From NCBI RefSeq assembly GCF_036013745.1, contig NZ_CP107880.1, positions 8,494,001 through 8,558,000 of the forward strand: DNA of 64,000 bases. Reading direction: 5' to 3'. The DNA comes from Streptomyces sp. NBC_00483. GTDB taxonomy: Bacteria > Actinomycetota > Actinomycetes > Streptomycetales > Streptomycetaceae. The notes beneath the pieces were generated by a model, which was given only the letters and a program-made list of their open reading frames with translations, had not been told where the DNA came from and did no database searches. Made by a program: the position numbers and the translations under genes. Shown in pieces: positions 11,667-40,900 of the stretch. Every line of letters begins with the position of its first letter. Position 1 is the stretch's first letter.

Positions 11667-11670
11667 ACCG

Positions 11671-11704: not shown

Positions 11705-11790
11705 TTCCAGCGTGCCGCCGTGCCGGGATGGGGAGCTGCCCCGGCACGGCACCACCACCACTCCCACCCGGACCCCCTCTTGGAGGACCT

Positions 11791-14625: not shown

Positions 14626-16154
14626 CGGGACGACACCCGCGTCGCGCCCTCGCCGCCACCGCCGCGGGCATCCTGCTCGCCGGGCTCGCGCTGTTCACCG
14701 GCGCGGTCCCGGCGGCGGCCGCGTCGGTCACCGACTGCACCCAGTGGGGCACCACCGAGACGCAGGGCGGCACGTACACGTACCAGCAGAACGAGTGGAA
14801 CTCCTCGGCCCGCCAGTGCGCGAGCGTGGACACCGCGACCGGCGCCTGGAAGCTGACCGAGGCGAACTTCTCGCTCACCACGGCGGGACCGCCCGCCACC
14901 TACCCGTCCAGCTACAAGGGCTGCCACTGGGGCGTGTGCACCGCGAACAGCGGCCTGCCGATCCGGGTCGGCGAACTGGGCAGCGCCCGCTCGACGTTCG
15001 ACACCACGCAGGTCGCCTCCGGCGCCTGGAACGCCTCGTACGACCTGTGGTTCAACTCCACGCCCACCACCGACGACCAGCCGGACGGCACCGAGGTGAT
15101 GATCTGGATCAACCACCGCGGCGGCGTCCAGCCCATCGGCTCCCGCACGGCCACGGTCACGGCGGACGGCAGGACCTGGGACGTGTGGACCGGGCCCGGC
15201 GCCTCCGGGTGGAAGGTCATCTCGTACGTGCTGCAGGGCGGCGCCACCGCGGTGACCGACCTCGACGTGAAGCGCCTCGTCGACGACGCCACCGCGCGCG
15301 GCCAGATCAACCCCGCGCACTACCTGATCGACGCGGAGGCCGGCTTCGAGATCTGGCAGGGCGGCCAGGGTCTCGGCGTGAACTCCTTCTCGTTCGAGGC
15401 CAGTAAGGGCTCGGGCGGCGGGGACACCACGCCGCCGACCGCGCCCCGCAACTTGCGGTCCACCGGGGCGAGTTCGTCGTCCGCCTCGCTGGCCTGGGAC
15501 CCCGCCACGGACGACGTCGGCGTCACGTCGTACGACGTCTACCGCGGCGGCACCCGCGTCGGTTCCACCGGCGGCACGACGTACACCGACACCGGGCTGA
15601 CGGCGTCCACCGCGTACAGCTACACCGTGCGCGCCCTGGACGCGGCCGGGAACGCCTCGCCACCCACCGGTCCGGTGAGCGTCACCACTGAGCCCGGCGG
15701 CGGGACCGGCACCGGCAATCTGAAGGTGCAGTACAAGACGAGCGATACGGGCCTGACGGACAACGCCATCGGGATGAACCTGAAGGTGGTCAACACCGGT
15801 AGTGGTGCGCAGAGTCTGAAGGACGTCGAGATCCGCTACTGGTTCGACGACTCGGCCTCCTCGTACACGACGTGGTGCGATTGGGCGCAGATCGGCTGCT
15901 CGAACCTGACCCACTCGGTGTCGACGAACGGCACGGCGACCGGGGCCAATCGCTACCTGAAGGTCAACGTCACCGGCGGCACGCTCGCCGCGGGCGCCTC
16001 GACCGGCGACATCCAGTTGCGGCTGCACCGGGCCGACTGGTCGAACCTCAACGAGGCCGACGACTACAGCCACGGCACCGCGAGTTCGTACACGGACGCC
16101 CCGAAGATCGGCGTCTACTCCGGCGGCCAACTCCTGTGGGGCACCGCGCCCTGA
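14622..16154 (+). CDS. secreted GH12 endoglucanase with FN3 and CBM3
   Basis: 510 residues from a GTG that overlaps the GH48 stop by four bases. Signal peptide about 1-34 (AAAASVTDC). The GH12 jelly roll (about 36-262) starts with DCTQWGTTETQGGTYTYQQN and shows the nucleophile Glu in TEVMIWINHRGG and the acid Glu in FEIWQGGQGLG. FN3 about 267-357 and CBM3 about 363-508 follow. Cuts internal beta-1,4-glucan bonds, possibly xyloglucan as well. The DNA for its CBM3 is almost identical to that in the GH6 gene (separate repeat entries), which points to recent duplication or gene conversion. Confidence 0.94.
   Translation: MTGRHPRRALAATAAGILLAGLALFTGAVPAAAASVTDCTQWGTTETQGGTYTYQQNEWNSSARQCASVDTATGAWKLTEANFSLTTAGPPATYPSSYKGCHWGVCTANSGLPIRVGELGSARSTFDTTQVASGAWNASYDLWFNSTPTTDDQPDGTEVMIWINHRGGVQPIGSRTATVTADGRTWDVWTGPGASGWKVISYVLQGGATAVTDLDVKRLVDDATARGQINPAHYLIDAEAGFEIWQGGQGLGVNSFSFEASKGSGGGDTTPPTAPRNLRSTGASSSSASLAWDPATDDVGVTSYDVYRGGTRVGSTGGTTYTDTGLTASTAYSYTVRALDAAGNASPPTGPVSVTTEPGGGTGTGNLKVQYKTSDTGLTDNAIGMNLKVVNTGSGAQSLKDVEIRYWFDDSASSYTTWCDWAQIGCSNLTHSVSTNGTATGANRYLKVNVTGGTLAAGASTGDIQLRLHRADWSNLNEADDYSHGTASSYTDAPKIGVYSGGQLLWGTAP
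15708..16147 (+). repeat. 440-bp CBM3 repeat, copy 1 (GH12)
   Basis: Same length as 17934-18373 and identical apart from three substitutions that I could find by reading the two side by side: agtGgt/agtAgt, tctGaag/tctCaag and gggCgcc/gggTgcc. The flanking linker and stop regions differ, so the unit is bounded by the module. Confidence 0.95.
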
Positions 16155-16168
16155 TCCACCCCCAGACA

Positions 16169-16209
16169 CCCGGTGGCGGGAATCCTTCCCGCTGCCTCCC
16201 GCCACCGGG
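16169..16209 (+). terminator. stem-loop between GH12 and GH6
   Basis: A 13-bp perfect stem CCCGGTGGCGGGA / TCCCGCCACCGGG with a 15-nt loop, 15 nt after the GH12 stop. It could be a terminator or an mRNA-stabilising loop between cotranscribed cellulase genes. Confidence 0.65.
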
Positions 16210-16253
16210 CCGTACCCCCGCACACCCTTATCCGAGAGGAACACCACACAACG

Positions 16254-18380
16254 ATGAACACCACCACGCACCTCAGACGCAAGAGCCGCTTCAGGAGGCT
16301 CGCGGCGCTGCTGCCTGCGCTCGCCATGGGAGCCGCGCTCAGCGTCGCGCTGCCTACCGCACCGGCCTCGGCGGCCGCGGCGGCCCGGGTCGACAACCCG
16401 TACGTGGGCGCCAAGCCGTACGTCAACCCGGACTGGTCCGCCAAGGCGAAGGCCGAGCCCGGCGGCTCCGTCATCGCCGACGAGCCCAGCTTCGTCTGGA
16501 TGGACCGGATCGCCGCGATCACCGGCACCTCCAACGGCCGTGGCCTGCGCGCCCACCTCGACCACGCGCTGACGCAGGGCGCCACGCTCTTCCAGGTCGT
16601 CATCTACGACCTGCCGGGCCGCGACTGCTCGGCGCTCGCCTCCAACGGCGAGCTGAAGGCGGAGGAGCTCGACCGGTACAAGTCGGAGTACATCGACCCG
16701 ATCGCGGCGATCCTCGCCGACCCGAAGTACGCGGCACTGCGGATCTCCGCGCTGATCGAGCCGGACTCGCTGCCCAACATGGTCACCAACGCGGGCAGCG
16801 CGGCCGGCGCCACGGACGCCTGCCGGCACGTGAAGGAAGTGGGGTCGTACGAGAAGGGCGTCGGCTACGCGCTGAACAAGCTCGGCGACATCCCCAACGT
16901 CTACAACTACATCGACGCGGGCCACCACGGCTGGCTCGGCTGGGACACCAACTTCGACCCGGCAGTCGACGAGTTCAAGAAGGCCGCCACCTCCGAGGGC
17001 GCGACGGTCGACGACGTCGCCGGCTTCATCGTCAACACCGCCAACTACGGTGCGCTGCACGAGCCGAACTTCAAGGTCACCGACTCGGTGAACGGCACCA
17101 CCGTGCGCCAGTCCAAGTGGGTCGACTGGAACTACTACGTCGACGAGCTGGGCTTCGCCCAGGCGCTGCGTGAGCGCCTGGTCAGCCGCGGCGGCTTCAA
17201 CTCCGGCCTCGGCATGCTCATCGACACCGCCCGCAACGGCTGGGGCGGCACCGCACGGCCCACCGGCCCCGGCCCGCAGACCTCCGCCGACGCCTACGTC
17301 GACGGCGGCAGGGTGGACCGCCGCATCCACACCGGCAACTGGTGCAACCAGCAGGGAGCCGGAGTCGGCGAACGCCCGCAGACCGCGCCCGAGCCGGGCA
17401 TCGACGCGTACGTGTGGGCCAAGCCCCCGGGCGAGTCGGACGGCAACAGCCAGCCCATCGACAACGACGAGGGCAAGGGCTTCGACCGGATGTGCGACCC
17501 GACCTACGAGGGCAACGCACGCAACGGCAACAATCCGACCGGCGCCATGGCCGACGCCCCGCTGGCCGGCCGCTGGTTCTCCGCACAGTTCCAGATGCTG
17601 CTGACCAACGCCTACCCGCCGCTGAACGGCGGCGGCGACCCGGGCCCCGACACCGAGGCGCCGAGCGTCCCGGCGGGGCTGAAGACGACGGGCGCCACCT
17701 CGTCGTCGGTGTCACTGTCCTGGACCGCTTCGACGGACAACGTGGGCGTCGCGTCGTACGACGTGTACCGCAACGGGACCCTCGTCGGCTCCACCGGCGG
17801 CACGACGTACACCGACAGCGCTCTGACCGCCTCCACCACCTACCAGTACAAGGTGCGGGCGCGGGACGCCGCCGGGAACGCCTCGGCCCAGTCCGCGCAG
17901 GTCGCCGGCACGACGACTTCGGGGGGTGGGTCGGGCACCGGCAATCTGAAGGTGCAGTACAAGACGAGCGATACGGGCCTGACGGACAACGCCATCGGGA
18001 TGAACCTGAAGGTGGTCAACACCGGTAGTAGTGCGCAGAGTCTCAAGGACGTCGAGATCCGCTACTGGTTCGACGACTCGGCCTCCTCGTACACGACGTG
18101 GTGCGATTGGGCGCAGATCGGCTGCTCGAACCTGACCCACTCGGTGTCGACGAACGGCACGGCGACCGGGGCCAATCGCTACCTGAAGGTCAACGTCACC
18201 GGCGGCACGCTCGCCGCGGGTGCCTCGACCGGCGACATCCAGTTGCGGCTGCACCGGGCCGACTGGTCGAACCTCAACGAGGCCGACGACTACAGCCACG
18301 GCACCGCGAGTTCGTACACGGACGCCCCGAAGATCGGCGTCTACTCCGGCGGCCAACTCCTGTGGGGCACCGCCCCGTAA
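16254..18380 (+). CDS. secreted GH6 cellobiohydrolase with FN3 and CBM3
   Basis: 708 residues from the ATG at 16254 (GAGAGGA site upstream). Signal peptide about 1-40 (PASAAAAA). The GH6 catalytic domain (about 42-455) has the two expected catalytic-aspartate regions, LPGRDCSALASNGE and ALIEPDSLPNM, and the closing segment DAYVWAKPPGESDG typical of exo-acting members. FN3 about 465-555 and CBM3 about 560-707 follow. Attacks cellulose from non-reducing ends and complements GH48. A stem-loop separates it from GH12; no CebR box lies directly upstream, so it is probably transcribed with GH48-GH12. The stop codon region marks the end of the cellulase island. Confidence 0.95.
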   Translation: MNTTTHLRRKSRFRRLAALLPALAMGAALSVALPTAPASAAAAARVDNPYVGAKPYVNPDWSAKAKAEPGGSVIADEPSFVWMDRIAAITGTSNGRGLRAHLDHALTQGATLFQVVIYDLPGRDCSALASNGELKAEELDRYKSEYIDPIAAILADPKYAALRISALIEPDSLPNMVTNAGSAAGATDACRHVKEVGSYEKGVGYALNKLGDIPNVYNYIDAGHHGWLGWDTNFDPAVDEFKKAATSEGATVDDVAGFIVNTANYGALHEPNFKVTDSVNGTTVRQSKWVDWNYYVDELGFAQALRERLVSRGGFNSGLGMLIDTARNGWGGTARPTGPGPQTSADAYVDGGRVDRRIHTGNWCNQQGAGVGERPQTAPEPGIDAYVWAKPPGESDGNSQPIDNDEGKGFDRMCDPTYEGNARNGNNPTGAMADAPLAGRWFSAQFQMLLTNAYPPLNGGGDPGPDTEAPSVPAGLKTTGATSSSVSLSWTASTDNVGVASYDVYRNGTLVGSTGGTTYTDSALTASTTYQYKVRARDAAGNASAQSAQVAGTTTSGGGSGTGNLKVQYKTSDTGLTDNAIGMNLKVVNTGSSAQSLKDVEIRYWFDDSASSYTTWCDWAQIGCSNLTHSVSTNGTATGANRYLKVNVTGGTLAAGASTGDIQLRLHRADWSNLNEADDYSHGTASSYTDAPKIGVYSGGQLLWGTAP
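17934..18373 (+). repeat. 440-bp CBM3 repeat, copy 2 (GH6)
   Basis: Partner of 15708-16147; see that entry. Only three mismatches in 440 bp were seen, far fewer than between these CBM3s and those of GH10 or GH48. Confidence 0.95.
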
Positions 18381-21228: not shown

Positions 21229-21909
21229 TCACTGCACCGAGGCGGCCGGGGACGGGGCCAGCAGGCTACGGCCGGCCGTCAGGGCGAGGTGGGCGGTGAA
21301 GGTGTCCTGGTCCACCGCCTCGGTGGCGAAGTCCGCGCCGTGGGCGGTGCGGACGACGCATGCGGAGAAGATCGTGGCGAAGCACTGGCGTGCGGCCGTC
21401 TCCGGATCGGGGTGGGTGATCTCGTCGCGGACGCCGAGCAGAAGCGCGGTGAAGGTATCGGCGAGGGTGTGGACGTGGGACCGGCCGCGGCGCAGTACTT
21501 CGGGGTGGGCGCCGGACAGCAGGAGAACGGGCTTGAGGAAGGCCGCGTGTCGCCTGAAGAGATCCGTCAGTTGAGCGACGGCAGCGGTGATCAACTCGTC
21601 CGCGGGCATGCCCCGCCAGCGGTCCGGGTTACGGAAGGGCTGCTGGTCGGCGACGATGCGGGCGATGCCGTGCTCGTAGACGGCGAGGAAGAGCGCGTCC
21701 TTGTTGGTGGTGCGGTCGTACAGCGCCCGGGGAGCGACCTGCGCCTTTTCGCAGAGGGCCGCGATGGTGAACGCCTCGTAGCCGCCCTCCTCGACGAGTG
21801 AGACACCTGCGTCCAGGATGCGGGCCCACGCGCGGCGGGTGCGCTCCTGGCGCGGCTCGCGGATCTCCAGGTCGTCGGTGCGCCGTTCGGTGGTGGACAT
21901 GCGGGCCAT
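21229..21909 (-). CDS. TetR-family regulator
   Basis: 226 residues from the ATG at 21909, which has a CAGGAG site 6 nt upstream; a longer frame reaches 22047 but lacks such a site and would run into the divergent gene's promoter. The HTH is ARILDAGVSLVEEGGYEAFTIAALCEKAQVAPRALYDRTTNKDALFLAVY (about residues 26-75). The C-terminal ligand domain is helical. Divergent from an FAD monooxygenase 151 bp away, which is the likely regulated gene, with a flavonoid- or antibiotic-like ligand as one possibility. Confidence 0.88.
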   Translation of the reverse strand: MARMSTTERRTDDLEIREPRQERTRRAWARILDAGVSLVEEGGYEAFTIAALCEKAQVAPRALYDRTTNKDALFLAVYEHGIARIVADQQPFRNPDRWRGMPADELITAAVAQLTDLFRRHAAFLKPVLLLSGAHPEVLRRGRSHVHTLADTFTALLLGVRDEITHPDPETAARQCFATIFSACVVRTAHGADFATEAVDQDTFTAHLALTAGRSLLAPSPAASVQ

Positions 21910-21972
21910 TCTCGCTCCTGCTCCCGTACTGCCGAACTCACGGCCTCCTGGCGGAAAACCTGCCCGTACCCA

Positions 21973-22003
21973 TTGACACATGGCCCGGTCCGGCCGATCT
22001 AAT
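21973..22003 (+). promoter_or_regulatory. promoter of the FAD monooxygenase
   Basis: TTGACA (21973-21978) and TCTAAT (21998-22003) separated by 19 nt, in the TetR/monooxygenase intergenic region. The spacer is slightly long, so this is a moderate prediction. Confidence 0.4.
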
Positions 22004-22060
22004 GTCCCCGGAACAGAAACCGTATCGCGCACTACGCTTTTGGTCATCGGGAGACGCTAT

Positions 22061-23311
22061 ATGCCGCACACCCCTTCCGCCGCAGGCCGACCGGGCCGGG
22101 TCGCCGTTGTCGGCGCCGGGCCCGCCGGTATGGCCGCCGCACTCTCCGCCCACCAGGCGGGCCATGAGGTCACGCTCTTCGAGCGGCACGCCCAGACCCG
22201 GCCGGCCGGCAACATCCTGAATCTGTGGCCCGCGCCCATCAAAGCCCTCGGCCTGCTCGGCGTGGACATCGAGGACCTCGGAGCCCCCTGTCAGAGCGAG
22301 TTCCGCAATGTGCGCGGCAAGCGGCGGGTACGGGTCCGGCTGCCCGAACATGTGGTGCGTGACTATGGGGGCGGCTTCATCGGTCTGCTCCGCCCCGACC
22401 TGTACGAGCGGCTGCTGGCCGCGCTCCCGCCGGGCGTGCTGCGCACCGGCCACACGGTGGAGAAAGTCGAGCAGGACGACCAAACGGCCCGGCTGTACAT
22501 GGACGACGGAACCGTGCACGAGGCCGACGTCCTGATCGGTGCCGACGGGATCAACTCCCTTGTCCGCCGCACCCTTTGGGGCGACTCGCCCATCCGGCCG
22601 CACCATCTGCAGCTCTACGGGGGCTACACCCTCGCCGATACCGTCTCCGCGCCCAAGGGGCTGTGCGTGCTGACCCACAGCCCCACCGTTCAGGGCGCCT
22701 GGACCGCCATCCGCAGCAAGGGCCGTGACGGCTTCCAGTGGTGGGTGCTCAGCGCCCACGACATCGACCGCCCGGTGCCGGACGATCTGCACGGCGCCGC
22801 CGCCCGCCTCGCCCGCGGCTTCCCCGACCCGCTGCCGCAGCTCATCGCCGCCACCGACCCCGCCCATGTGCAGAGCTGGCCGCTGCGGGACCGTAAGCCG
22901 CTGAAGCAGTGGTCGAAGGGCCGGGTCACTCTGATCGGCGATGCCGCCCACCCCACCTCCCCGTACGCCGCCTACGGAGCCGGGATGGCGACCGAGGACG
23001 GCTACTTCCTCGGCCGGCGCCTCGCGGGTGTCGACCTCACCGATGGGGCGGCCGTACGCCGGGCTCTCGACGCCTTCGAGGCGCCGCGCAAGCCGCACAC
23101 CGCCCGGCAGTCGCAGACGGCTTGGGCGCTCGGCAAGGTGTTCCACCACGCGCCGGCTCTGCTACGTCCGCTGCGCGACGCCGTCCTCGACCACACGCCG
23201 CTGCTCCAGAAGGTCGTCGGGGAGGGAACGCCGGGGGAGATCCTCAAGCAGTTGGAGGAGATCGAACGGACCGAGCGGGCCTTCACCGCCGCACGGGGTG
23301 ACGCACGCTGA
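22061..23311 (+). CDS. FAD-dependent monooxygenase (aromatic hydroxylase type)
   Basis: 416 residues from the ATG at 22061 (GGGAGA upstream). The N-terminal Rossmann motif VVGAGPAGMAAALSAHQAGHEVTLFER binds FAD. The mid-protein motif VLIGADGINSLVR (DG motif) binds both FAD and NAD(P)H. The GD motif GDAAHPTSPYAAYGAGMATEDGYFL closes the flavin site. This is the group A flavoprotein hydroxylase layout (PHBH fold), which inserts one oxygen atom into an aromatic or otherwise activated substrate. It has no fused extra domain. The divergent TetR gene is probably its regulator; the substrate is not evident. It ends 16 nt from the end of the convergent ROK gene. Confidence 0.9.
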   Translation: MPHTPSAAGRPGRVAVVGAGPAGMAAALSAHQAGHEVTLFERHAQTRPAGNILNLWPAPIKALGLLGVDIEDLGAPCQSEFRNVRGKRRVRVRLPEHVVRDYGGGFIGLLRPDLYERLLAALPPGVLRTGHTVEKVEQDDQTARLYMDDGTVHEADVLIGADGINSLVRRTLWGDSPIRPHHLQLYGGYTLADTVSAPKGLCVLTHSPTVQGAWTAIRSKGRDGFQWWVLSAHDIDRPVPDDLHGAAARLARGFPDPLPQLIAATDPAHVQSWPLRDRKPLKQWSKGRVTLIGDAAHPTSPYAAYGAGMATEDGYFLGRRLAGVDLTDGAAVRRALDAFEAPRKPHTARQSQTAWALGKVFHHAPALLRPLRDAVLDHTPLLQKVVGEGTPGEILKQLEEIERTERAFTAARGDAR

Positions 23312-23327: not shown

Positions 23328-24656
23328 TCAGGTGAGTTCGGCCGAGAGCCGTTGAAGGGTGGTGGCGTGGCCGAGGGGGGTGCCGCTCTCCACCCAGTGG
23401 GTGAGCGGTCCCGTGGCGAAGAGCCCCGAAGCGGCGAGGAGGCCGGCGCCGGTGACACCTTCGAGATGGTCGAGGGACGCGGCGCGCACGGTCAGGCCGG
23501 CGGTGACGAGTCGGATGCACCGCGCGCGCACCGTCGACGAGACGAGGTCGACGAACCGGGGGCCGGTGCGCAGCACGCCGCCGCCCAGGACGAGGACTCC
23601 GGGGTTGCAGAAGTTGACCAGGTTGGCGATGACGTCGGCGACCAGATGGGACCGCTTGTCGATCATCTCCAGGGCCAGCGCGTCGCCGGTGACCGCGGCC
23701 GCGCCGATCTCGCCGAGGGTCAGCCGGCCTGTCCGCTCCAGCGTCTTGGTGAGGTAGGGGCTCTCCGTCACCCGGCGGTGGGACTCCTCGAGCATGGACC
23801 AGCCGCTCGCGACGGCTTCCAGGCAGCCGGTCTGCCCGCACCGGCAGACTGCTGACGGGTCGTCGGTGACGTGCGTGTGGCCGATGTCGCCGGCCGCTCC
23901 GCGGTCTCCTCGCAGCAGGCGGCCGCCGTTGACCAGGCCCGCTCCGATGCCCGTGCCGACCTTGATGAACAGCATGTCGCGGCCGTCGCGCGGGGTTCCG
24001 CACGTCCACTCGCCCAGGGCCATCAGGTTCACGTCGTTGTCGACCCAGACCGGCGCGTCGTAGTGCTCGCGCAACCAGGACCGGACACTGAAGCCGTCCC
24101 AGCCGGGCATGATCGGCGGCGCCACCAGGCGGCCGGTGGCGAACTCCACCGGTCCCGGCACCCCGATCCCGATGGCCCACGGCCTGCCGAGCCCGGTCTT
24201 GAGGGCCAGGGCGGAGAACGCCGACTGCACGCGCTCCATCGTGGGCCGGGGTCCGACCTCGACGTCCCAGTCCTCGTGGTGCGAGGCGATGACGGCGCCG
24301 GAGAGGTCCATGATCGCGACGGTGAACTCGGATGCGCCCATGACCGCGGCGTAGAGGTGTCCCGCTCCGGCCCGGAAGCGCAGGGTCCGTGCCTGCCGGC
24401 CACCGGACGACGCGGCCAGCTCACCGTCCTCGACGAGGCCCAGTGCGAGGGCCTGGTCGACGCGCTGGGTGACGACCTTGCGGCTGAGACCGGTGGCGGT
24501 GACCAGCTCGGGCCGGGTCGTCGCGCGGCCGGAGCGGACGAGGTTGACGACGATCGCGAGGGGCGCCGCTTCGAGCGGCGGCAGGGTGGCGGCAGGGGAG
24601 AACGGCATCGGCTGTCCCGGTGGCGGAGCGCTGCCGATCGGGACCGGGCGGTCCAT
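23328..24656 (-). CDS. ROK-family transcriptional regulator
   Basis: 442 residues. An N-terminal winged helix (about 35-85, TTRPELVTATGLSRKVVTQRVDQALALGLV) precedes a ROK sugar-kinase-like domain (about 100-430). The ROK parts include GIGVPGPV, WVDNDVNLMALGEW, KVGTGIGAGLV, DIGHTHV and the zinc motif CRCGQTGCLEAVASG. The kinase ATP site looks intact, but members with a winged helix act as repressors. It lies 125 nt downstream of the deglycosidase alpha gene on the same strand and could be the last gene of that operon or have its own promoter. It most likely senses a glycoside or sugar for the cluster 24.8-29.3 kb. Confidence 0.88.
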   Translation of the reverse strand: MDRPVPIGSAPPPGQPMPFSPAATLPPLEAAPLAIVVNLVRSGRATTRPELVTATGLSRKVVTQRVDQALALGLVEDGELAASSGGRQARTLRFRAGAGHLYAAVMGASEFTVAIMDLSGAVIASHHEDWDVEVGPRPTMERVQSAFSALALKTGLGRPWAIGIGVPGPVEFATGRLVAPPIMPGWDGFSVRSWLREHYDAPVWVDNDVNLMALGEWTCGTPRDGRDMLFIKVGTGIGAGLVNGGRLLRGDRGAAGDIGHTHVTDDPSAVCRCGQTGCLEAVASGWSMLEESHRRVTESPYLTKTLERTGRLTLGEIGAAAVTGDALALEMIDKRSHLVADVIANLVNFCNPGVLVLGGGVLRTGPRFVDLVSSTVRARCIRLVTAGLTVRAASLDHLEGVTGAGLLAASGLFATGPLTHWVESGTPLGHATTLQRLSAELT

Positions 24657-24781
24657 GTCTTCCCCGTTCGTCGTTCCGCGTTCGCCGTCAGGGCGGTTGC
24701 CTTTGACGCGATGTTACGACAGCGCCGATGCGCCCCGAGGGCGGTGTCGCGGTGGCACCGCCGGCGGGGAGTCGACTGGTG

Positions 24782-25705
24782 TCAGTGCTCTCTGGCCTCG
24801 CGCTCCAGCTTCCGCAGCAGCGCGTGCTGGCGGCGGACCTGTTCGAGCGAGCGGTAGGGGATCCGGTCGCCTTCGTACTCGCTGGAGAGGTAGCCGGTGT
24901 AGCCGTGCTCGACGAGTGTCGTGACGATCTCCTGCCACGGGATGTGCGGATCGGTGAGGTCTTCGGTGATGTCGAAGAACTTCGCCTGGACGAAGGCGAC
25001 ATACGGCAGCACCGCCACCAGATCCGCCATCGGGACGGCCAAGGGGCGGCGCCATCCGGCCTCTTGGGCCTCCTCGTCGAGCCCGGCGTGATGTGCGTCG
25101 GTCGCGGCGCGCTGGAAGACGCCGGTGTCGATGAGCAGCCGGAAGTGGTCGGTCCCGGTGCGCTCGATGAACGCGAGGTAGTCGTCGACGACTTCGTGCT
25201 TGATGGGGGTGGGCGCGTGGATCTCGGGGCAGATGACGATGCCGAGTTCGGCCGCGCGGTCCAGTACGCGCTCGATGACCGCCTCCCAGATGGGGTGCGG
25301 CTTGAGGTCCATCGAGATCACGCCGATCTTGGGGCGCAGGGTGGTGAAGCCGAGGGCTGAGGCCAGTTCCAGATCCCGGCGGAGGATGGTGACACCCTCG
25401 TCGACCGTCAGGTCGCGGTGCTGCCACATGCGTGAGTCGATCCAGGACCCGTAGTTGGTGGGGGTGAGACTGTGGCGCTCCAGGCCGGTGTGCCAGTCGT
25501 CGATCCACCGGGTGCTCGGCGTGGGGTAGCCGCTGATGTTGCCCTCGCCGAGAATTTCGATGCCACTCGCGCCGAGGTCGGCGATCTCGGCCATGGCGTC
25601 GTCGAGGGTGAGCAGGGTGTTGATGTCTCCGGTGTAGCTGTAGAGGGAGACGCCGTACTTCAAGGTGTCGTGTCCGCTGTTGAGGGTGTCGTGTCCGCGC
25701 GTCAC
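24782..25705 (-). CDS. putative C-glycoside deglycosidase alpha subunit (xylose-isomerase-like TIM barrel)
   Basis: 307 residues from a GTG overlapping the stop of the beta-subunit gene (GTGA). Xylose-isomerase/AP-endonuclease-like TIM barrel with a likely divalent-metal site: Glu161 and His163 in CPEIHAP, Asp193 in LLIDTG, Gln240/Lys242 in FVQAKFFDI and Glu276 in YLSSEYEGD. In the Car/Dgp-type enzymes a protein of this family forms a complex with a small beta protein and eliminates the aglycone from 3-keto-C-glycosides. Neighbouring genes supply exactly that partner and an oxidase, which is the main reason for the call. The N-terminus contains a short duplication (GHDTLNS GHDTLKY); homologues seem to begin at KYGVSLYSYTGD, so a TTG start at codon 15 is an alternative. 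Otherwise it would be a generic sugar-phosphate isomerase/epimerase. Confidence 0.8.
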   Translation of the reverse strand: MTRGHDTLNSGHDTLKYGVSLYSYTGDINTLLTLDDAMAEIADLGASGIEILGEGNISGYPTPSTRWIDDWHTGLERHSLTPTNYGSWIDSRMWQHRDLTVDEGVTILRRDLELASALGFTTLRPKIGVISMDLKPHPIWEAVIERVLDRAAELGIVICPEIHAPTPIKHEVVDDYLAFIERTGTDHFRLLIDTGVFQRAATDAHHAGLDEEAQEAGWRRPLAVPMADLVAVLPYVAFVQAKFFDITEDLTDPHIPWQEIVTTLVEHGYTGYLSSEYEGDRIPYRSLEQVRRQHALLRKLEREAREH

Positions 25706-26100
25706 AGGAGCGTGACCTTTCGCTCGGCGTGGAAGACCGAGGGTTGGAACTCGGCCGGGATGTACGGGGCTTGGAGGGCGATGTCGACCTCGAGGAGGTG
25801 CACGCCCGCGGGCAGGCCGCCGAGGTGGGGGACGGTGATGGTGGCCGGCTCGTCGAGCTGCCAGCGGACATCGGTCGAGGTGCGCAGTTCGGCGCAGGTG
25901 AACTCGCGGCCCTGCAGCGTCCACCGTGGTGTCTCGCGGTCCCAGCGCAGGTCGCCGACCTGTACGGAGACACCTTCGATGAGGCTGCCCCACAGTCCTC
26001 GGTAGTTGGGCATCCGCAGGCGGAACTGGAAGCCGATGGTCTCCCCGTCGGCGTCGACGTTGCGTACGCCGCGGTTCTGGATGATGTCCCGGTCGAGCAT
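25702..26100 (-). CDS. putative C-glycoside deglycosidase beta subunit (DUF6379-like)
   Basis: 132 residues starting MLDRDIIQNRGVRNVDADGE, with a GGAGG site 5 nt before the ATG. It is an all-beta protein with segments QFRLRMPNYRGLWGSLIEGVSV, TCAELRTSTDVRWQLDEPATITVP and LPAGVHLLEVDIALQAPYIP. This pattern is what I remember for the DUF6379 / C-glycoside deglycosidase beta-subunit family. Its stop overlaps the alpha gene start, a fit for two subunits made in equal amounts. It has no enzymatic motif of its own and probably completes the active site of the TIM-barrel partner. Confidence 0.78.
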   Translation of the reverse strand: MLDRDIIQNRGVRNVDADGETIGFQFRLRMPNYRGLWGSLIEGVSVQVGDLRWDRETPRWTLQGREFTCAELRTSTDVRWQLDEPATITVPHLGGLPAGVHLLEVDIALQAPYIPAEFQPSVFHAERKVTLL

Positions 26101-26148
26101 GAAGCCTCCGGTGGTACGGATCGGGCAGGGGCGGTGAGGGCGGTGAGG

Positions 26149-27696
26149 TCAGCTTTCGGCGGCAGCGATGCTGCGCGCGCCACCGACGGCCAGGGCGACC
26201 GAGGTCAGGGTCGGGTTGCAGGCTGTGGCGGTGGGGATGACGCCGTTGCCGGCGACGAACAGGCCGCGTACGCACCAGACTTGGCTGCTCGGGTCGCAGA
26301 CCGAGGTGCCGTCGTCGGTGGCGCCCATCCGGACGGTGCCCTGGTAGTGCAGGGAGGCGCCGGGCGGGAAGAGGAGGGGCGGGGTGTCGTCGAGGGGCTC
26401 GCCGAGGGCGGCGGCCGCGTGCAGGATCTCGGTCCGGGCACCGTCGATGGCCCCGTGGTCCGCCTCGGTGAGCCGGTAGTGGATGTCCATCGCCGGCATC
26501 CCGTAGCCGTCCAACTCGTCGTCCCGGAAGGCGATCCGGTCCTCGGCGTGCAGATCCTTGGCGCAGAACCAGCCGAGCCCGACGACGGAGCCGGGTGCCA
26601 GGTCGTCGTCGGCCAGGGGTACCGGTGAGGCGTCCAGCTGCATGACCTGGCCGTGGTACGGGTGGGTGTCGGTGAAGGGCACCCAGGCCACGCCGCTGCT
26701 GGCCGTGACACCCACGTCGTCGTCCGGGGTGGGAGGGAGATCCGGCAGGTCCCGCATGCGCACGGCGTACACGAGCTGCGGCTGGTCGTTGAGGTAGCGC
26801 CCGAGGGCGGTTGGGCGGATGCCGGACGCGTACAGCAGTTGCGGGGTGCGCAGGCTGTCGCCGGCCACCACGACGTAGCGGGCCGCGACCTGGTGTTCGG
26901 TGCCCGTACGCCGGTCACGGACCCGCACGCCGCGCACGGCTTGCCCGTCCTGCCCGTCCTTGGCCAGTAGCACCTGGGTCACCAGTGCTTCCGCGTGCAG
27001 CGAGAAGTTGGGGTTGGTCCGGGTGGCGTCACCGAACACCATGTCCGCGCCACACCAGAGGAGTTGGCCGTCCGGTGTGCGACGCACGGCCATCGGCATC
27101 GGCTGGATCTGCCGGTCCCCGGCGCGGTCGTGGTCGAGGGCCACCGAAAGGCGCTTGCGGACCTCGTCGGCGAACGGCGCGTCGGCCAGCACGTCGGCGG
27201 AGACAGCGAGCAGCCGCTCGGCCTCGCCCAGCCAGTCGGTCAACTCCGGTAGAAAATCGATGACTTCGCTGTCTCCGGGGCGCGGACACGCTCCGGTCCA
27301 GTGCGCGCCCATACCGCCGACGTTGCTCGACATCGCTGCGGCGGGCAGTCCGTCCGCGGAGGCACGCTGCCGTGACTTCTCCAGCAGGAAGGTCCCCGGA
27401 CGCTGCAGTGTCGGCTGGTCACTGGCGTAGTCGTCCATGGTGTCGGTCGACACGGCCTCGGCGATCGGGCGGGGCCCCTCGGAGGCACGCTGGGCGCGGG
27501 CCCGCTGCTCGGGATCGGCGATGTTCTTCACGTGCGTACCCGGCGGGTCGCTGATCAGCGGACCGGCCTCGAAGACGGCGAGTCTCAGCTGCGGCGCGAG
27601 TTCGCTCAGGGCGCGGGCGTAGGCGGCTCCGGCCGGGCCACTGCCGACGATCGCGACATCGACCTCGTCGGGGAATCCACTGGCAGAACGGGGCAT
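26149..27696 (-). CDS. GMC-type FAD oxidoreductase, putative glycoside 3-oxidase
   Basis: 515 residues from the ATG at 27696, which has AGAGGAGG 5 nt upstream; the in-frame ATG at 27720 lies before that site and is less likely. N-terminal FAD motif VAIVGSGPAGAAYARAL, then SSNVGGMGAHWTGACPRP (flavin contact), and a C-terminal GMC substrate domain with His in ASLHYQGTVRMG and Asn in TACNPTLTSVALAVGG as the catalytic pair. No signal peptide. It resembles pyranose oxidases and CarA-type glycoside oxidases, which oxidise the sugar C3 hydroxyl. Located 48 nt upstream of the beta and alpha subunit genes on the same strand. It would make the 3-keto substrate those proteins need. Confidence 0.85.
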   Translation of the reverse strand: MPRSASGFPDEVDVAIVGSGPAGAAYARALSELAPQLRLAVFEAGPLISDPPGTHVKNIADPEQRARAQRASEGPRPIAEAVSTDTMDDYASDQPTLQRPGTFLLEKSRQRASADGLPAAAMSSNVGGMGAHWTGACPRPGDSEVIDFLPELTDWLGEAERLLAVSADVLADAPFADEVRKRLSVALDHDRAGDRQIQPMPMAVRRTPDGQLLWCGADMVFGDATRTNPNFSLHAEALVTQVLLAKDGQDGQAVRGVRVRDRRTGTEHQVAARYVVVAGDSLRTPQLLYASGIRPTALGRYLNDQPQLVYAVRMRDLPDLPPTPDDDVGVTASSGVAWVPFTDTHPYHGQVMQLDASPVPLADDDLAPGSVVGLGWFCAKDLHAEDRIAFRDDELDGYGMPAMDIHYRLTEADHGAIDGARTEILHAAAALGEPLDDTPPLLFPPGASLHYQGTVRMGATDDGTSVCDPSSQVWCVRGLFVAGNGVIPTATACNPTLTSVALAVGGARSIAAAES

Positions 27697-27905
27697 CCGG
27701 GCCTCCTCTGTCTGACGCATTCACAGGCGCTCAACTTAAGTGCCTATGGGACCTAAGGCAAGAGTGATCACGTGATGGCCCGCGAAGTGTCGGTTGAAGT
27801 GCTGCGCCCGAGCGGTTCTGTCCGAAGCGTTGACTTAGGTCCGCGAGGCACACAAGATGCGCTGCAAGCCATCCAGGCAATGACGCTGAGGTGAAGGACT
27901 CGATG
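27697..27905. promoter_or_regulatory. divergent control region of the glycoside cluster
   Basis: A 9-bp perfect inverted repeat is placed on both sides of the region: GGACCTAAG at 27749-27757 and CTTAGGTCC at 27834-27842. The palindrome ATCACGTGAT (27767-27776) lies between them, and ACTTAAGT at 27734-27741 is a further variant. TTGACT (27830-27835) overlaps the second arm and could be the -35 of the transporter gene. One regulator could bind both arms and control both directions. Confidence 0.6.
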
Positions 27906-29348
27906 ATGAGCACCAGGCAGCCCAGAACGCCCGGCAGGGACTCCGTTCAACCGGACCCCGCCCGAGACGATGGCGTAGCCGGTGTGCCGCTCGGCGCGGC
28001 GGACGACCCGCGCGCGGTGCGCCGCAGTGAACGGGCAGCCTTCGCCCTCGGGGACGTGGCGTCCAACCTGACGTGGACCACGATCTCCAGCTACCTGCTC
28101 TTCTTCTACACCGACGTCGCCGGAATCGTGGCGGGGGCCGCCGGCACGCTGATGCTGATCGCGCGGCTGCTCGACGCCTTCTTCGATCCGGCGGTCGGCC
28201 TGGTCGTCGACCGTACGACCTCGCGGTGGGGGCGCGCCCGGCCCTACCTTCTGTTCGGTGCGCCGCTGCTCGGCGCGCTGACCCTGCTGACGTTCCTCAC
28301 GCCGGGCGGCGGCGGTACAGCCGCGATCGTCTACGCGTACGTCACGTTCGTGCTCGTCGGGCTGGCGTACTCGCTGGTCAACGTCCCGTATGGGGCGCTC
28401 ATGGCCATGGCCACGCGGGACTCCGGGACGCGGATGCAGCTGGCGGGGATGCGCTCGTTCGGTGTCGGCATCGGCCTGATCGTGGTCTCCACCGCGACGC
28501 AGCCGCTGATCGGTCTGTTCGGTGGCTCGTCGACCTCACGGTCAGGGTTCGCCTGGACCATGGCGCTGTACGCCGCGATCGGCATGATCCTCTTCTGGGC
28601 CGTGTTCGGCCTCGTCAAGGAGCGGGTCCCGGCCGCTCCGATCGCCGAGGAGGGGGCCGGAATCCGGGTCTCCATCAAGGCGCTGGCACGCAACCGGCCC
28701 TGGATGACGGTCTTTTCGTTCTCGATCCTGTCGTTCGCGCGGCTCGGCATCATCACCGGTGGCGCCGTCTACTTCGCTCTCCACGTCCTGCACAAGCCGT
28801 CGGCCGTCCCGGTCATCCTGCTCGCGTTCTCGCTGTCCGCGGTGCTCGGGTCCCTGGTCACCGCGAAAACCCTGCGGCTGCTGGGGCAGCGCCGGGGCAT
28901 CCTGCTGGGCCTCATGGGGTGCATCGTCCTCAGCGGTCTGCTGTTCTTCCTGCGCGACAACCTCATCGCGTTCACCGTGGTGTTCTTCGTCGCCAACCTC
29001 GTCGGAGGCCTGGGTTTCGTCGCCGGCCCCGCGCTGGTGGCCGACACGGCGGAGTGGCACGAGTGGCGCAGCCGGCGCCGCGACGAGGGGCTGCTGTTCG
29101 CCGGCTACAGCATGAGCACGAAGATCGGCGCCGCCCTCGGGTCGGCCTGTCTCGCCTGGGGGCTGTCGGGCATCAACTACCGCCCCGGCGCTGTCACTTC
29201 CGACGTGAGCGACGGCATCGCCCTGCTGTTCATCGGCCTGCCCATCCTCGTCGCGGCGCTCCAGGCCGCGGTGATCGCCACGTACTCGCTGGAAGCGAAA
29301 CTGCCCGGCGTCAAGGCGGACAACCTCCGCCTCCGCGAGGGGCGTTAG
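27906..29348 (+). CDS. GPH/MelB-type glycoside:cation symporter
   Basis: 480 residues; starts at 27891 (GTG), 27903 and 27906 are in frame, and the AAGGA site at 27894-27898 fits the ATG at 27906 best. About 12 transmembrane segments with the GPH-family signatures near the first loops: SYLLFFYTDVAGI, ARLLDAFFDPAVGLVVDRTTSRWGRARPYLLFG and later ADTAEWHEWRSRRRDEGLLFAGYSMSTKIG. Related proteins import melibiose, lactose, glucuronides or plant glycosides with Na+ or H+. The position opposite the oxidase/deglycosidase genes makes it the likely importer of the glycoside they cleave. Confidence 0.9.
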   Translation: MSTRQPRTPGRDSVQPDPARDDGVAGVPLGAADDPRAVRRSERAAFALGDVASNLTWTTISSYLLFFYTDVAGIVAGAAGTLMLIARLLDAFFDPAVGLVVDRTTSRWGRARPYLLFGAPLLGALTLLTFLTPGGGGTAAIVYAYVTFVLVGLAYSLVNVPYGALMAMATRDSGTRMQLAGMRSFGVGIGLIVVSTATQPLIGLFGGSSTSRSGFAWTMALYAAIGMILFWAVFGLVKERVPAAPIAEEGAGIRVSIKALARNRPWMTVFSFSILSFARLGIITGGAVYFALHVLHKPSAVPVILLAFSLSAVLGSLVTAKTLRLLGQRRGILLGLMGCIVLSGLLFFLRDNLIAFTVVFFVANLVGGLGFVAGPALVADTAEWHEWRSRRRDEGLLFAGYSMSTKIGAALGSACLAWGLSGINYRPGAVTSDVSDGIALLFIGLPILVAALQAAVIATYSLEAKLPGVKADNLRLREGR

Positions 29349-34097: not shown

Positions 34098-34133
34098 AAG
34101 TGCCCCCACCGCAGTATGCGGCCAGGAGCACTT
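34098..34133 (-). promoter_or_regulatory. hairpin in the cold-shock gene leader
   Basis: AAGTGC...GCACTT arms (34098-34103 / 34128-34133) around CCGCA-GTA-TGCGG (34109-34121), about 100 nt before the start codon on the minus strand. Cold-shock mRNAs often carry regulatory 5' structures; whether this one folds differently with temperature is unknown. Confidence 0.45.
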
Positions 34134-34599
34134 GAAGTTTTCGGGAACCACAACTGCAACTGAGACGACAGTAGCACGCCATAGCGGCCCGCGGGTACGA
34201 ACTAATCCCGCTCTACTCATTGCGCTAAAAACTCTCCCTGCCCGGATCGTTAAACCCTCACTTCGCGAACACAGACATTGGTTTGCCGAGCGCAGCGATT
34301 CGGAAGAGTGCCGGATGCCTGTTGCCGGGTTAACCGGTTTTGCCGCCACGCCAGGGTCAATGGCGTCTGGCGGCTACCGCCTCCACGCATCGACGCGGTC
34401 GTGCGCTCCCGGCGTGAGGACGGTCGGGTGTGCGTACGAGCCGGCCATGGCGCAGATCCGGGCCCCCGGCCGGTCGGCAGGCCGTGGACGGAGGCTCACT
34501 AGACGATGCGCGCCATCATGGTCGGGGTGGCGTGCGCCGCATCCGTGCCCGGTTTGTTACCGGCGGCTCCCCGTCCTATGGGGTGGCAAAAGGGGCGCC

Positions 34600-34881
34600 G
34601 ACACCGGTCCGTCACCGGTCGACCGGCGGAAGACGGGTAGCAAGCACCACTTGATCTGTGACGGCCGCGGCACCCCGCTCAAAGTCATCAGCACCGCCGC
34701 GACCGTCAACGACATCACCCAGACCCTCGCGCTCGTCGACGGCATCCCGCCCGTCGCAGGACGTCCAGGCCGGCCAAGGAGACGCCCGGACGCCCTACTC
34801 GGTGACAAGGGCTACGAGTCGAACCCGAACCGGGCCGCACTTCGCAAGCGGAAGTTCCTGCCGGTCATCTCCCGAAAAGGC
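34600..34881 (+). pseudogene. IS5-type transposase C-terminal remnant
   Basis: Reads GPSPVDRRKTGSKHHLICDG, then GTPLKVISTAATVNDITQTLALVDGI and RPRRRPDALLGDKGYESNPNRAALRKR, the catalytic-domain middle of IS5/IS427-like transposases. The N-terminal half is missing and it breaks off before the final catalytic Glu region. Non-functional. Confidence 0.8.
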
Positions 34882-34963
34882 TGCCTGCAGTCTCATCTGC
34901 CGGCGCCGACTCAAGAAGACCCAACCATGACCGTATTGCGGGCCCGGACTCGACCCGTGGGAT

Positions 34964-35377
34964 CTACGGGTCGGTGGCCTTGGCGAGCACCAGAGTCGGC
35001 GGCCCATCCGGATCGGGCTGGATCTCCACCTCCGGCTGGCTTCTCACGTAGAGCTGGAGGTCGCCGATCTTGCCGAGGCCACCGTTCTTGGTTTCCAGGT
35101 AGACGAAGTCGCTGGACTCCTCGTTGGCAACGAACTCCCATTCGCCACTGAAGTCGAGGGGGTCGGTACCTCCACTCCCCGTGGCTTCGTTTGCCGAGAT
35201 GTCCGTGGCGGTGAACGTCTTGTCAGGGTTGAGGAGGACCTTGCCGCCAGTTTTGTCGTTGAGGTACACGCCGGGCAGCTCGTCGGGGTCGACCTGGGCC
35301 GCGCACCCTGAGATGAGTACCGCAGAGGCGGTCAACGCGGCGACGAGCCACCGCCCGCCCATCCCCCTGATGATCAC
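34964..35377 (-). CDS. putative lipoprotein
   Basis: 137 residues from a GTG at 35377 (ATG 35362 is an alternative start that leaves the same mature protein). The signal peptide ends in the lipobox LISGC (Cys at about 25), so the protein should be lipid-anchored on the outer face of the membrane. The mature part has a pattern of short beta strands (GVYLNDKTGGKVLLNPDKTFTATDIS, FSGEWEFVANEESSDFVYL, IGDLQLYVRSQPEVEI) like small lipocalin/META-type proteins with unknown role. It stands alone between a transposase remnant and a gene-poor stretch. Confidence 0.78.
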   Translation of the reverse strand: MIIRGMGGRWLVAALTASAVLISGCAAQVDPDELPGVYLNDKTGGKVLLNPDKTFTATDISANEATGSGGTDPLDFSGEWEFVANEESSDFVYLETKNGGLGKIGDLQLYVRSQPEVEIQPDPDGPPTLVLAKATDP

Positions 35378-35791: not shown

Positions 35792-36934
35792 CTACCCCGG
35801 CACGGCAGTCGTCCCGCTCAGTGCGGACCGCGGCGAGCCCCACTCCCGCAGTCGCGCCCCGACCCGGTCGTCCCGTTCATCGCGTACCGCCTCCTCGTAG
35901 GCCTTGGCCAGTACGTCGTCGATCAGGACACGCCGCCCCGCGCGGGCCGACTCGACCGCTGCCTCGACCATCGCGAGGCTGAGGATGTTCTCGTGGACCT
36001 CGCCCATCGGCACCGTGCCGGTGCGCAGGGCCGCCGTGAACACCTCGAGGGCGCCCGCGATGCCGTCAGGGGTGCGGACCGGGTCCAGAGGCGGGGCGGC
36101 CGGCGGGTCGGTCGTCGGGGGCGTCTCGCCGTCCCATAGGACTGTTCCCTTTTCGCCGGAGAGCCGCCAGCGGCCGTTCCAGGACGTCTCGTCGCCGCCC
36201 TGGCACCAGCTGCCGTGGTACGTGTAGCGCACGCCGCCGGCGAATTCGAAGACAGCGCTCGCCGCCGCGTCGCCCGCGTACCAGCTCCAGGGCGGGTTGT
36301 ACGACTCGCAGTAGACCGCCACCGGTTCCGCGCCGATCAGGAAGCGGGCCGTGTCGAAGGGGTGGACCGCCATGTCCACCAGGAGCGGGTACGCCATGGC
36401 GTCGCGGAAACCGCCGAAGCGGGGCGCTCGGTAGAACTCCGTGGTCACGCCGCCGAGTTGGCCGAGGCGTTCCGTCACCTCCGACCGTAGTGCGAACACC
36501 TGTGGGTTCCAGCGCCGCGACTGGCTGACCATGAACAGCTCGCCGGTCACCTCCGCGGCCGCCGCGAGGGAGAGCGCGGACGCGACCGTGGGGGCCACCG
36601 GCTTCTCGCCGAGGACGGGAAGCCCGGCCGCGAGCGCGGCGGTCGTGACCGGGTGATGGGCCGCGGGGACGGTGACGTTCACGATCGCCTGCGCACCGGT
36701 CTCCACCGCGAGTCGCACCGCGTCCGCGCCGACCGGCAGGTCCCGGCGTCCCGTCTCGCGCGCCGCGTCCCGCGCCGCCTCCAGGTCGAGGTCGACGATG
36801 CCGACGAGCGCGGCCGTCGGCGAAGCGGCTAGCGCCCGGAGCCACGCGCGTCCCATCCCGCCGGCGCCGACCAGGAGCACGCGCAGCGGATCCTCGGGGC
36901 CGTTCGCGATGATCCGGTGGCTCATGTGGCTCAT
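35792..36934 (-). CDS. Gfo/Idh/MocA-family oxidoreductase
   Basis: 380 residues from an ATG that overlaps the ThuA-like gene's stop (ATGA). Rossmann motif [20 protein letters not shown] near residue 20, the characteristic EKPVA around residue 111, and a C-terminal beta-sheet domain with the [13 protein letters not shown] helix that usually holds the catalytic His. Such enzymes oxidise or reduce sugars and inositols with NAD(P), including 3-keto sugar chemistry. Last gene of the LacI-controlled ABC operon, so it should act on the imported sugar or its first product. Confidence 0.9.
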
Positions 36935-37728
36935 GACAGCGGCCCCTGGTACGAGCCGCCCTTGAAGAACTCGCCGGTGTCGTAGCGGAGCAGCTCCGGG
37001 TACGCCCGCTCCACCGGGCGGTCCGTGCGCGCCCATTGCACGCCGTTCGCGATGACCTTGCGGACGTGCTTGTGGTGGTACGTCGGGAAGTCCTGGTCGC
37101 CGGGGCGGAAGTAGAAGATCTTGCCGTGGCCGCGCCGGAAGGTGCAGCCGCTGCGGAAGACCTCGCCACCGCTGAACGACGACACGAAGACCAGCTCGTC
37201 GGGGGCCGGGATGTCGAAGTACTCGCCGTACATCTCGTCCTCGGGAATCTCGATGGGGTGCGGCACCCCTTGCGCGATCGGGTGCGTCGGGTCGACGGTC
37301 CAGATCAGCTCGCGGTCGTGCTCGCTGCGCCAGCGCAGGGTGCAGCTGGTGCCCATCAGCTTGGTGAAGATCTTCGACCAGTGCCCGGAGTGCAGCACGA
37401 TCAGCCCCATGCCGGACAGAACGTGCCGGTGCACCCGCTCGACGACCGCGTCGCTGACGTCACCATGTGCGGCGTGCCCCCACCAGGTCAGCACGTCGGT
37501 GGCGGCGAGGACCTCCTCGGTGAGGCCGTGCTCGGGCTCGTCCAGGGTGGCGGTGCGCACGGTGCAGCCGTCGCCGAGGTTCTCGCGGATGCCGTCGGCG
37601 ATGGTGGCGTGCATGCCGTCCGGGTAGATCTTCGCGACGTGCTCCTCGGTCTGCTCGTGGCGGTTCTCGCCCCAGACGGTCACACGGATCGGGGCGTTGT
37701 CCTGAGAAGAAGACTGGGATGGAGACAT
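36931..37728 (-). CDS. ThuA-like protein
   Basis: 265 residues from the ATG at 37728 (AAAGGTGA site upstream; a GTG at 37740 is possible). ThuA domain, a class I glutamine-amidotransferase-like fold without the Cys nucleophile: [52 protein letters not shown], and a late [19 protein letters not shown]. ThuA proteins are tied to trehalose/disaccharide use in rhizobia through 3-keto sugar intermediates, but the biochemistry is unsettled. It lies between the permease and the Gfo/Idh gene, the usual company of this family. Confidence 0.88.
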
Positions 37729-37776
37729 GTGGTGAATCACCTTTCTGGTGGGGGTGGTTGGAGCCCTGGCGCCGGG

Positions 37777-38616
37777 CTACTTGACCGATCCGCCGGCCAC
37801 GCCCGCGGCCACGTACCGCTGCGCCGCGACCAGCAGCAGCACCGCAGGAATGCACGCGAGCGTCGCCGTCGCCATGACCGCGCTCCAGTCGTTCACGTGC
37901 GCGCCGAGGTACTGATAGAGGCCGAGCGTCACTGGGCGGACCGTCTTGGTGGTCGTCAGCGTGAGCGCGAACAGGAAGTCGCTCCAGGCGAACAGGAACG
38001 TGAACAGGCCTGCCGTGATCAGCGCGTTGCGGCTCATCGGGACGACGATCGAGAAGAAGGCACGCGTGTGCCCGGCCCCGTCCACTCGCGCCGCCTCGAC
38101 GAGCGACGGTGGGATGGCGCGCATGAACGCCAGCATGATCAGGATCGCGAACGGCACGCCGTGCGAGGCGTCCGCGACGATCAGGCCGCCGACCGAGTTG
38201 AGAAGGCCGAGCTGGTTGTACGCGCTGTAGAGGGCGTTGGCGATGACGATGCCCGGGATCATCTGGCTGATGAGGATGCCGAGCAGGACCGGGCCCGCCC
38301 AGCGCAGCTTGAAGTGCGAGAGCACATACGCGGCCGGCGTCGCGATGAGCAGGCTGACCGCGACGCTGCCCAGGGCCACGGTCAGGCTGGTGATCAGGTT
38401 CTGGCCCTGGTCGCGGACGGCGGCCGCGTAGCCGCCGAAGTCGAAGGTGCTGGGGAACCAGTCGGTGGCGGTGGCCGCACTGCCGGGCTGGAAGGAGACA
38501 TTCACCATCCAGTACACCGGGAACAGCATGAACACCATGAGCACGAGGCCGATCGCGGTGTTGCCCCAGGCCCGGCCGGCGTCGCCGCGGGCGGGGGAGT
38601 GTGTCGATGACGCCAT
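37777..38616 (-). CDS. carbohydrate ABC transporter permease (MalG type)
   Basis: 279 residues from the ATG at 38616. Six transmembrane segments and the EAA loop that contacts the ATPase (SLVEAARVDGAGHTRAFFSIVVPMSRNAL). The C-terminus AAGVAGGSVK is typical for the MalG-like half. The operon has no ATPase gene, so a shared MsiK-type ATPase encoded elsewhere probably energises it, as is usual in Streptomyces. It starts 8 nt after the stop of the MalF-like gene. Confidence 0.92.
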   Translation of the reverse strand: MASSTHSPARGDAGRAWGNTAIGLVLMVFMLFPVYWMVNVSFQPGSAATATDWFPSTFDFGGYAAAVRDQGQNLITSLTVALGSVAVSLLIATPAAYVLSHFKLRWAGPVLLGILISQMIPGIVIANALYSAYNQLGLLNSVGGLIVADASHGVPFAILIMLAFMRAIPPSLVEAARVDGAGHTRAFFSIVVPMSRNALITAGLFTFLFAWSDFLFALTLTTTKTVRPVTLGLYQYLGAHVNDWSAVMATATLACIPAVLLLVAAQRYVAAGVAGGSVK

Positions 38617-38624
38617 GGCGGACC

Positions 38625-40860: not shown

Positions 40861-40886
40861 GCGCTTCCTCCCGGTCGATGGTCCGG

Positions 40887-40900
40887 TCGATACGTATCGA
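40887..40900. promoter_or_regulatory. LacI-family operator before the sugar operon
   Basis: Perfect 14-bp palindrome TCGATACGTATCGA with central CG, 26 nt upstream of the binding-protein start and just behind the LacI gene. It matches the two sites found upstream of the LacI gene itself. Confidence 0.8.

Follow-up and report, generated by a model that had tools for sequence, protein, structure and literature searches.

This article concerns a small gene cluster of the soil bacterium Streptomyces sp. NBC_00483 that most likely imports plant sugar conjugates, oxidizes the sugar, and splits the sugar off. C-glycosides resist ordinary hydrolysis, and the protein at the center of the cluster is predicted to be a two-subunit C-glycoside deglycosidase (CGD). 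The stretch of 64,000 nucleotides analyzed, hereafter the window, is base 8,494,001-8,558,000 of a single 10.24-Mb contig. An earlier sequence-only reading had proposed five genes here, and all five stand at its coordinates as open frames with the family matches claimed for them. The features are as follows, in window positions; FAD is flavin adenine dinucleotide, and L006 and L007 are the related loci of S. sclerotialus and S. fumigatiscleroticus.

23328-24656, minus strand: ROK-family regulator, probable local repressor (open frame and family match)
24677-24781, no strand: alpha-ROK junction, with 2.3 kb extra in L006 and L007 and none here
24782-25705, minus strand: predicted CGD alpha subunit, xylose-isomerase-like TIM barrel with a Gln-type metal site, GTG start
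25702-26100, minus strand: predicted CGD beta subunit (PF19906), 132 residues, overlapping the alpha start by 4 bases
26149-27696, minus strand: predicted FAD-dependent GMC glycoside 3-oxidase, PsG3Ox/CarA-like, open frame extendable to 27720
27735-27757, no strand: 23-bp palindrome O1, operator candidate, before the oxidase gene
27834-27856, no strand: 23-bp palindrome O2, operator candidate, before the transporter gene
27906-29348, plus strand: GPH:cation symporter (MFS_2), divergent from the oxidase operon, start also possible at 27891
21980-23311, plus strand: FAD-dependent aromatic-type monooxygenase, possible aglycone hydroxylase, peripheral and of uncertain link

The sequence-only reading had made its case depend on the small protein belonging to the CGD beta family, and it does: the match to PF19906 scores 126.5 bits (cut-off 27.6, E 5.2e-37). 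Its Tyr33 aligns with Tyr39 of the PuCGE beta subunit and is kept in 79/79 copies, and the beta-family search gave this gene as the one PF19906 match in the 10.24-Mb genome. The four-base alpha/beta overlap is real as well (GTGA at 25702-25705). The alpha protein aligns with a solved deglycosidase at E 3.3e-100, and 13/13 of the best fold matches to its TIM barrel are CGDs. In profile searches, the transporter matches TIGR00792 (328.4 bits, cut-off 231.35) and the ROK gene PF00480 (165.4 bits, cut-off 22.9). The N-terminus of the ROK protein reaches only 14.6 bits with MarR_2, under the cut-off of 27, and over residues 45-408 the protein gives alignments to NagC and Mlc whose scores also fall short of the model cut-offs.

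The oxidase is nearest to PsG3Ox (7qf8) and MtCarA (7dve). Set against the motifs of PMC10646112, it has the GMC fold, the substrate loop ASPVPLADD, an insertion-1 segment by alignment, and the AHW motif, which is GAHW here versus AAHW in PsG3Ox. By fold and motifs, we predict an FAD glycoside 3-oxidase. The molecule name of 7dve, "6'''-hydroxyparomomycin C oxidase," would point to aminoglycosides, a reading that we dropped: this structure is MtCarA, 7qf8 gives the better score, and the surroundings are those of a CGD.

The metal site of the alpha subunit comprises Glu161, Asp193, Gln240, Lys242, and Glu276, with His163 as the catalytic residue by alignment position. Glu161, Asp193, and Glu276 had been correctly placed before, without Gln240, Lys242, or the catalytic His163. 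The Gln240 position is Gln in 120/120 listed homologues (58 of split length and 62 of fused length, the best 120 of 1345 matches), and in 81/81 alphas when the window is taken with 80 related loci and their flanks (the best 80 of 312). The same loci hold 47 paralogous alphas, defined as tblastn matches below 45% identity, with His at this position in 44/47 and Gln in 3/47. These three (L033 2716 and L036 2719 in Geodermatophilus, L042 2693 in Goekera) possibly reflect independent exchange. Glu161, His163, Asp193, Lys242, Glu276, and Glu278 are unchanged in 128/128 alphas and paralogues, and His163, which matches His143 of PuCGE by alignment position, is invariant in the 81/81.

His-type CGDs (PuCGD, EuCGD, AgCGD2) carry a site of one His, two Glu, one Asp, and one Lys, and the alpha subunit here differs from it. 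The Mn2+ ligands of AgCGD2, for example, are Glu147, Asp179, His269, Lys271, and Glu305 (PMC8563793). Since the His is replaced by Gln240, we place the protein with the Gln-type branch of 8qrz and not with the His-type subgroup. A paper on the Microbacterium testaceum CGD structures was not found in the literature searched. At the alpha N-terminus (window 25661-25705, minus strand) there is a near-duplicated GHDTL stretch (GHDTLNSGHDTL). The structure model has low confidence over residues 1-11, and an in-frame TTG encodes residue 15; translation may therefore begin downstream of the GTG.

The cluster is patchily distributed. When 392 genomes of the genus were searched for alpha, 4 matched, this one included; two of the others (G263 and G084) look fused by open frame and spacing, the third is a partial match, and the split type is certain in 1/392. 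A class-wide beta-family search found 5/394 genomes, again with its own. Among the named alpha matches listed (best 120 of 1345), S. fractus is on top at 89%, and the alphas of S. sclerotialus and S. fumigatiscleroticus are also 89% identical. Actinoplanes, Agromyces, Amycolatopsis, and Microbacterium come next (74-81%), and other named Streptomyces proteins are of fused length and 62-64% identical. The same gene order is found again in other genera: a divergent transporter with the order oxidase-beta-alpha is kept in 7/15 nearest loci, the ROK gene lying beside the transporter in 5 of these and after alpha, as here, in two Streptomyces. This patchiness suggests that the cluster moved between genera.

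Alpha and beta are separate in 14 of the 15 nearest loci (L006-L020), and 9/15 of these genomes have only one CGD beta gene. L020 (Amycolatopsis tucumanensis) has no beta match beside alpha, and at 8693-9810 the end of its oxidase match directly meets the alpha match. The other 65 loci comprise 60 fused, one split (L083), one with no beta seen on its contig (L048), and three from Novosphingobium (L074, L081, L085) with alpha before beta, opposite to the other side-by-side loci. An alpha tree of 59 rows was built after 24/81 alpha rows were dropped for thinning; 8/47 paralogues passed the length filter (250-480), of which 2 formed the outgroup. The split rows of Actinobacteria cluster together among fused rows, with a Shimodaira-Hasegawa-like approximate likelihood ratio test (SH-aLRT) value of 91. 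At 6.3 and 7.9 changes per column, the branches to the outgroup are so long that the root, and with it the polarity of fission versus fusion, is unsure. Soil enzymes MiCGD, AgCGD1, AgCGD2, and MtCGD are described as alpha/beta heterodimers in PMC8563793.

The full route consists of oxidation, elimination, hydration, and reduction (PMC13273386). The earlier description of a complete C-glycoside catabolic cluster holds for the oxidase, eliminase, GPH symporter, and ROK regulator; "complete" must be dropped, as hydratase and reductase genes are absent between alpha and ROK. Apart from the transporter/oxidase gap, the alignment of the window with L006 runs unbroken from the transporter as far as the alpha end (24781) and resumes at 24677. 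Between alpha and the next aligned stretch L006 has an extra 2.3 kb (5376-7696), as does L007, encoding a Gfo/Idh/MocA oxidoreductase (Gfo) and an AP_endonuc_2 protein. The latter matches 8ro4, a "2-hydroxy-3-keto-glucal hydratase," at E 2.6e-41 and is closer to 2zds (SCO6571 of S. coelicolor) at E 3.7e-154. Among the 15 nearest loci, Gfo follows alpha in 5 and a hydratase-like gene in 3.

An unlinked hydratase homologue (66%) lies at genome position 7,697,678-7,698,670, 0.8 Mb from the cluster. Next to it is an intact Gfo of more remote kinship (38%), the stop reported for it being the gene's own end; a second Gfo (52%) is at 1,487,280. These unlinked homologues may complete hydration and reduction in trans. 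The hydratase homologue occurs in 71/101 sampled genomes of the genus, own included (E <= 1e-60), and is present twice in both S. sclerotialus and S. fumigatiscleroticus. Another Gfo/Idh/MocA gene is accompanied by a LacI regulator and components of a sugar ABC transporter at window 35792-42124, and is not among the 12 genome matches of the cluster-type Gfo.

A simple deletion of the pair here was not established. Agromyces (L013) has a hydratase/Gfo pair in the same place, its hydratase grouping with L006/L007 (and fused-type L023). The L006/L007 Gfo, by contrast, falls among those from fused-type Streptomyces clusters (SH-aLRT 99) and not with the split clade, and sister locus L008 has no such pair; gain in the L006/L007 species is as possible as loss here.

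In the transporter/oxidase gap, both copies of the palindrome CTTNNGTNCNNNNNGNACNNAAG score 12/12. They are the only perfect matches genome-wide (10.2 Mb), against about 0.2 expected from base composition by our own estimate. Each fills a 17-bp spacer, TTGCCT/TAAGTT for the oxidase and TTGACT/CAAGAT for the transporter (read by eye, spacing checked). A palindrome of at least 10/12 recurs in 8/15 nearest loci (L006-L009, L013, L017-L019), a count that includes loci from which the motif was derived; it lies between transporter and oxidase, except in L018 and L019, where the matching gap is ROK/oxidase. The 65 loci not used for derivation hold 28 sites of at least 10/12. Thirteen of these sites have a ROK match no more than 400 bp away, in zones that make up 1.3% of bases, these loci being related and not independent; every fifth locus of the 65 gave 5 sites, no more than five base shuffles (4-10). 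The palindromes are probable ROK operators, most likely used by a local ROK repressor that works through occlusion. The literature searched had no paper pairing ROK with C-glycoside clusters. A terminator in the alpha-ROK gap was also considered and rejected (RNA fold z -1.6, not convincing).

From the gene content, family membership, residues, synteny, and motif, all seen directly, we infer the activities, substrate, cell location, complex formation, and repression that follow. The GPH symporter would import the glycoside, and the FAD oxidase would oxidize sugar C3 in the cytoplasm, producing hydrogen peroxide. The alpha/beta complex would then bind the 3-keto-glycoside through a divalent metal on Glu161, Asp193, Gln240, Lys242, and Glu276; His163 would remove the C2 proton while Tyr33 of beta stabilizes the phenolate aglycone, and beta-elimination would break the C-C (or C-O) bond to give 2-hydroxy-3-keto-glucal. 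Hydration and reduction would follow in trans through the hydratase-like gene at 7,697,678-7,698,670 and its adjoining Gfo. The ROK protein would repress both divergent promoters through the two palindromes until a sugar or glycoside binds. We put the probability of this whole explanation at roughly 0.72.

Several points weigh against it. The hydratase and reductase genes are not in the cluster. The metal-ligand His essential in PuCGD and MiCGD, in which alanine mutants of the metal-ligand residues are dramatically less active (PMC8563793), is Gln here, so activity cannot be transferred from those enzymes, and no assay of any Gln-type enzyme turned up in the literature searched. As for regulation, three more genome sites appear when one mismatch is allowed, and the total of 5 is not above the 9 of a reversed control; with two mismatches, the window has 2 sites versus a shuffle mean of 1.28, not above chance. 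No palindrome of at least 10/12 occurs at the matching place in 7/15 nearest loci (L010-L012, L014-L016, L020), and a strict sigma-70 scan of the intergenic stretch called no promoter. The unlinked hydratase and reductase homologues have no palindrome within one mismatch, which leaves joint regulation unsupported.

The substrate is where the strongest alternative enters. The related PuCGE also cleaves a 3-keto-O-glucoside (PMC10628242), so C-glycosides alone cannot be taken as the substrate. The module could mainly serve 3-keto-O-glucosides of plant phenolics as a generalist or O-glucoside pathway, with C-glucosides a side activity, although we consider this rather unlikely. Plant glycosides are mostly O-linked (PMC10628242), and PuCGE is no slower on 3-keto-phlorizin (O; 1.25 U/mg) than on 3-keto-nothofagin (C; 0.64 U/mg; PMC13273386). 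Yet the beta subunit, the component associated with C-C cleavage, is retained with its Tyr33 in all 79 copies, whereas the O-eliminase AtOGE has no such subunit (PMC10628242), and CarA-type oxidases are far slower on O- than on C-glycosides (PMC10646112).

More doubtful still is that the Gln-type alpha/beta pair is a different eliminase, for another sugar or with another metal and chemistry, that cleaves no C-C bond in its host. The fixed Gln240 (81/81, versus His in 44/47 paralogues) speaks for it, as do the many Micrococcales loci with a fused Gln type beside His paralogues, which suggest a different job. However, the remaining catalytic and metal positions examined show no change across 128/128, the Gln-type M. 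testaceum protein was deposited as a C-glucosyl deglycosidase, and a single CGD beta gene is what this genome and 9/15 of L006-L020 contain. A sugar-phosphate isomerase or inositol-type operon with an unrelated oxidase has next to no chance of being correct: homologues are generically annotated "sugar phosphate isomerase/epimerase" and alpha matches Pfam AP_endonuc_2, but the beta subunit and the fold ranking led us to reject it.

Beyond import, oxidation, and elimination of a plant glycoside, a wider idea can be offered tentatively, and we would not bet on it. Gln-type CGDs may form a distinct functional class in which the fixed His-to-Gln exchange tunes the metal (an all-oxygen plus Lys site, perhaps for Mg2+ or Ca2+) and the substrate range, giving soil actinobacteria without a His-type copy one enzyme for C- and O-glucosides. 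The module with its ROK gene and 23-bp operator might move between genera as a unit and leave the last two steps to core enzymes of sugar catabolism.

Beside the ROK gene, a TetR regulator (21229-22047, minus strand) accompanies the FAD_binding_3 monooxygenase (21980-23311, plus strand). Monooxygenase homologues occur in 4/15 nearest loci: L006, and at 56-60% in the CGD loci of Paenarthrobacter (L009), Agromyces (L013), and Microbacterium (L017). Homologues of 66-73% are found in 12/383 other genomes of the genus and in 0 of the 3 other alpha-positive ones. We did not accept it as a cluster gene; the link is not exclusive, homologues occurring in alpha-negative genomes. The cellulose/xylan island reported earlier is present at 7625-18380 (plus strand) with GH9, GH10-CBM3, GH48-CBM3, and GH6-CBM3. 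A putative glycoside hydrolase (GxGYxYP) lies at 4613-6235, and an open frame matching the DDE_Tnp_1 transposase family is at 34132-35151, 4.8 kb from the transporter gene. At 51738-54527 an AbgT-type transporter adjoins an M20 peptidase, a pair that we presume to resemble p-aminobenzoyl-glutamate use genes.

Three points merit a bench test: the metal site of Gln type, the separation of the subunits, and completion of the last two steps by unlinked genes. With a single alpha/beta pair and no second CGD by beta-family search, the Gln-type role can be tested here without the His-type paralogues that confuse Microbacterium and Arthrobacter loci. The predicted operator is a direct, cheap handle on the true inducer, and hence on the natural substrate.

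The earlier comparison with the Car and Dgp systems stands for the oxidase and the two-subunit eliminase family but obscures that alpha is of the Gln-type branch and not of their His type. DfgAB/EuCGD, DgpBC/PuCGD, CarBC/MiCGD, AgCGD2, and the D. aerius CGD have two subunits, a TIM-barrel alpha and a PF19906-type beta, as here, and share the Glu, Asp, Lys, and Glu metal residues and the catalytic His. They differ in having His (His269 in AgCGD2; by alignment in DfgA, D. aerius, and DgpC) in place of Gln240, and the DgpC and AgCarB2 chains are longer than alpha here (337 and 354 residues). The M. testaceum C-glucosyl deglycosidase in the PDB (8qrz, 8un2) is Gln-type too, but as one fused beta-alpha chain of 435 residues, compared with two genes and a 4-base overlap here. 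PsG3Ox (7qf8) and MtCarA (7dve) have the same substrate loop, AHW motif, and insertion-1 segment as this oxidase, which is 61% identical (best segment) to the gene of P. siccitolerans; that gene lies near four CGD-type genes (PMC10646112), whereas one alpha/beta pair is found here. The SCO6571-type core gene (2zds) and 8ro4 likely represent the step-3 hydratase family, of which this genome has a 66% copy and lacks the clustered copy of S. sclerotialus. The machinery of the cluster is thus of a known kind, and its Gln type already has a deposited structure from M. testaceum.

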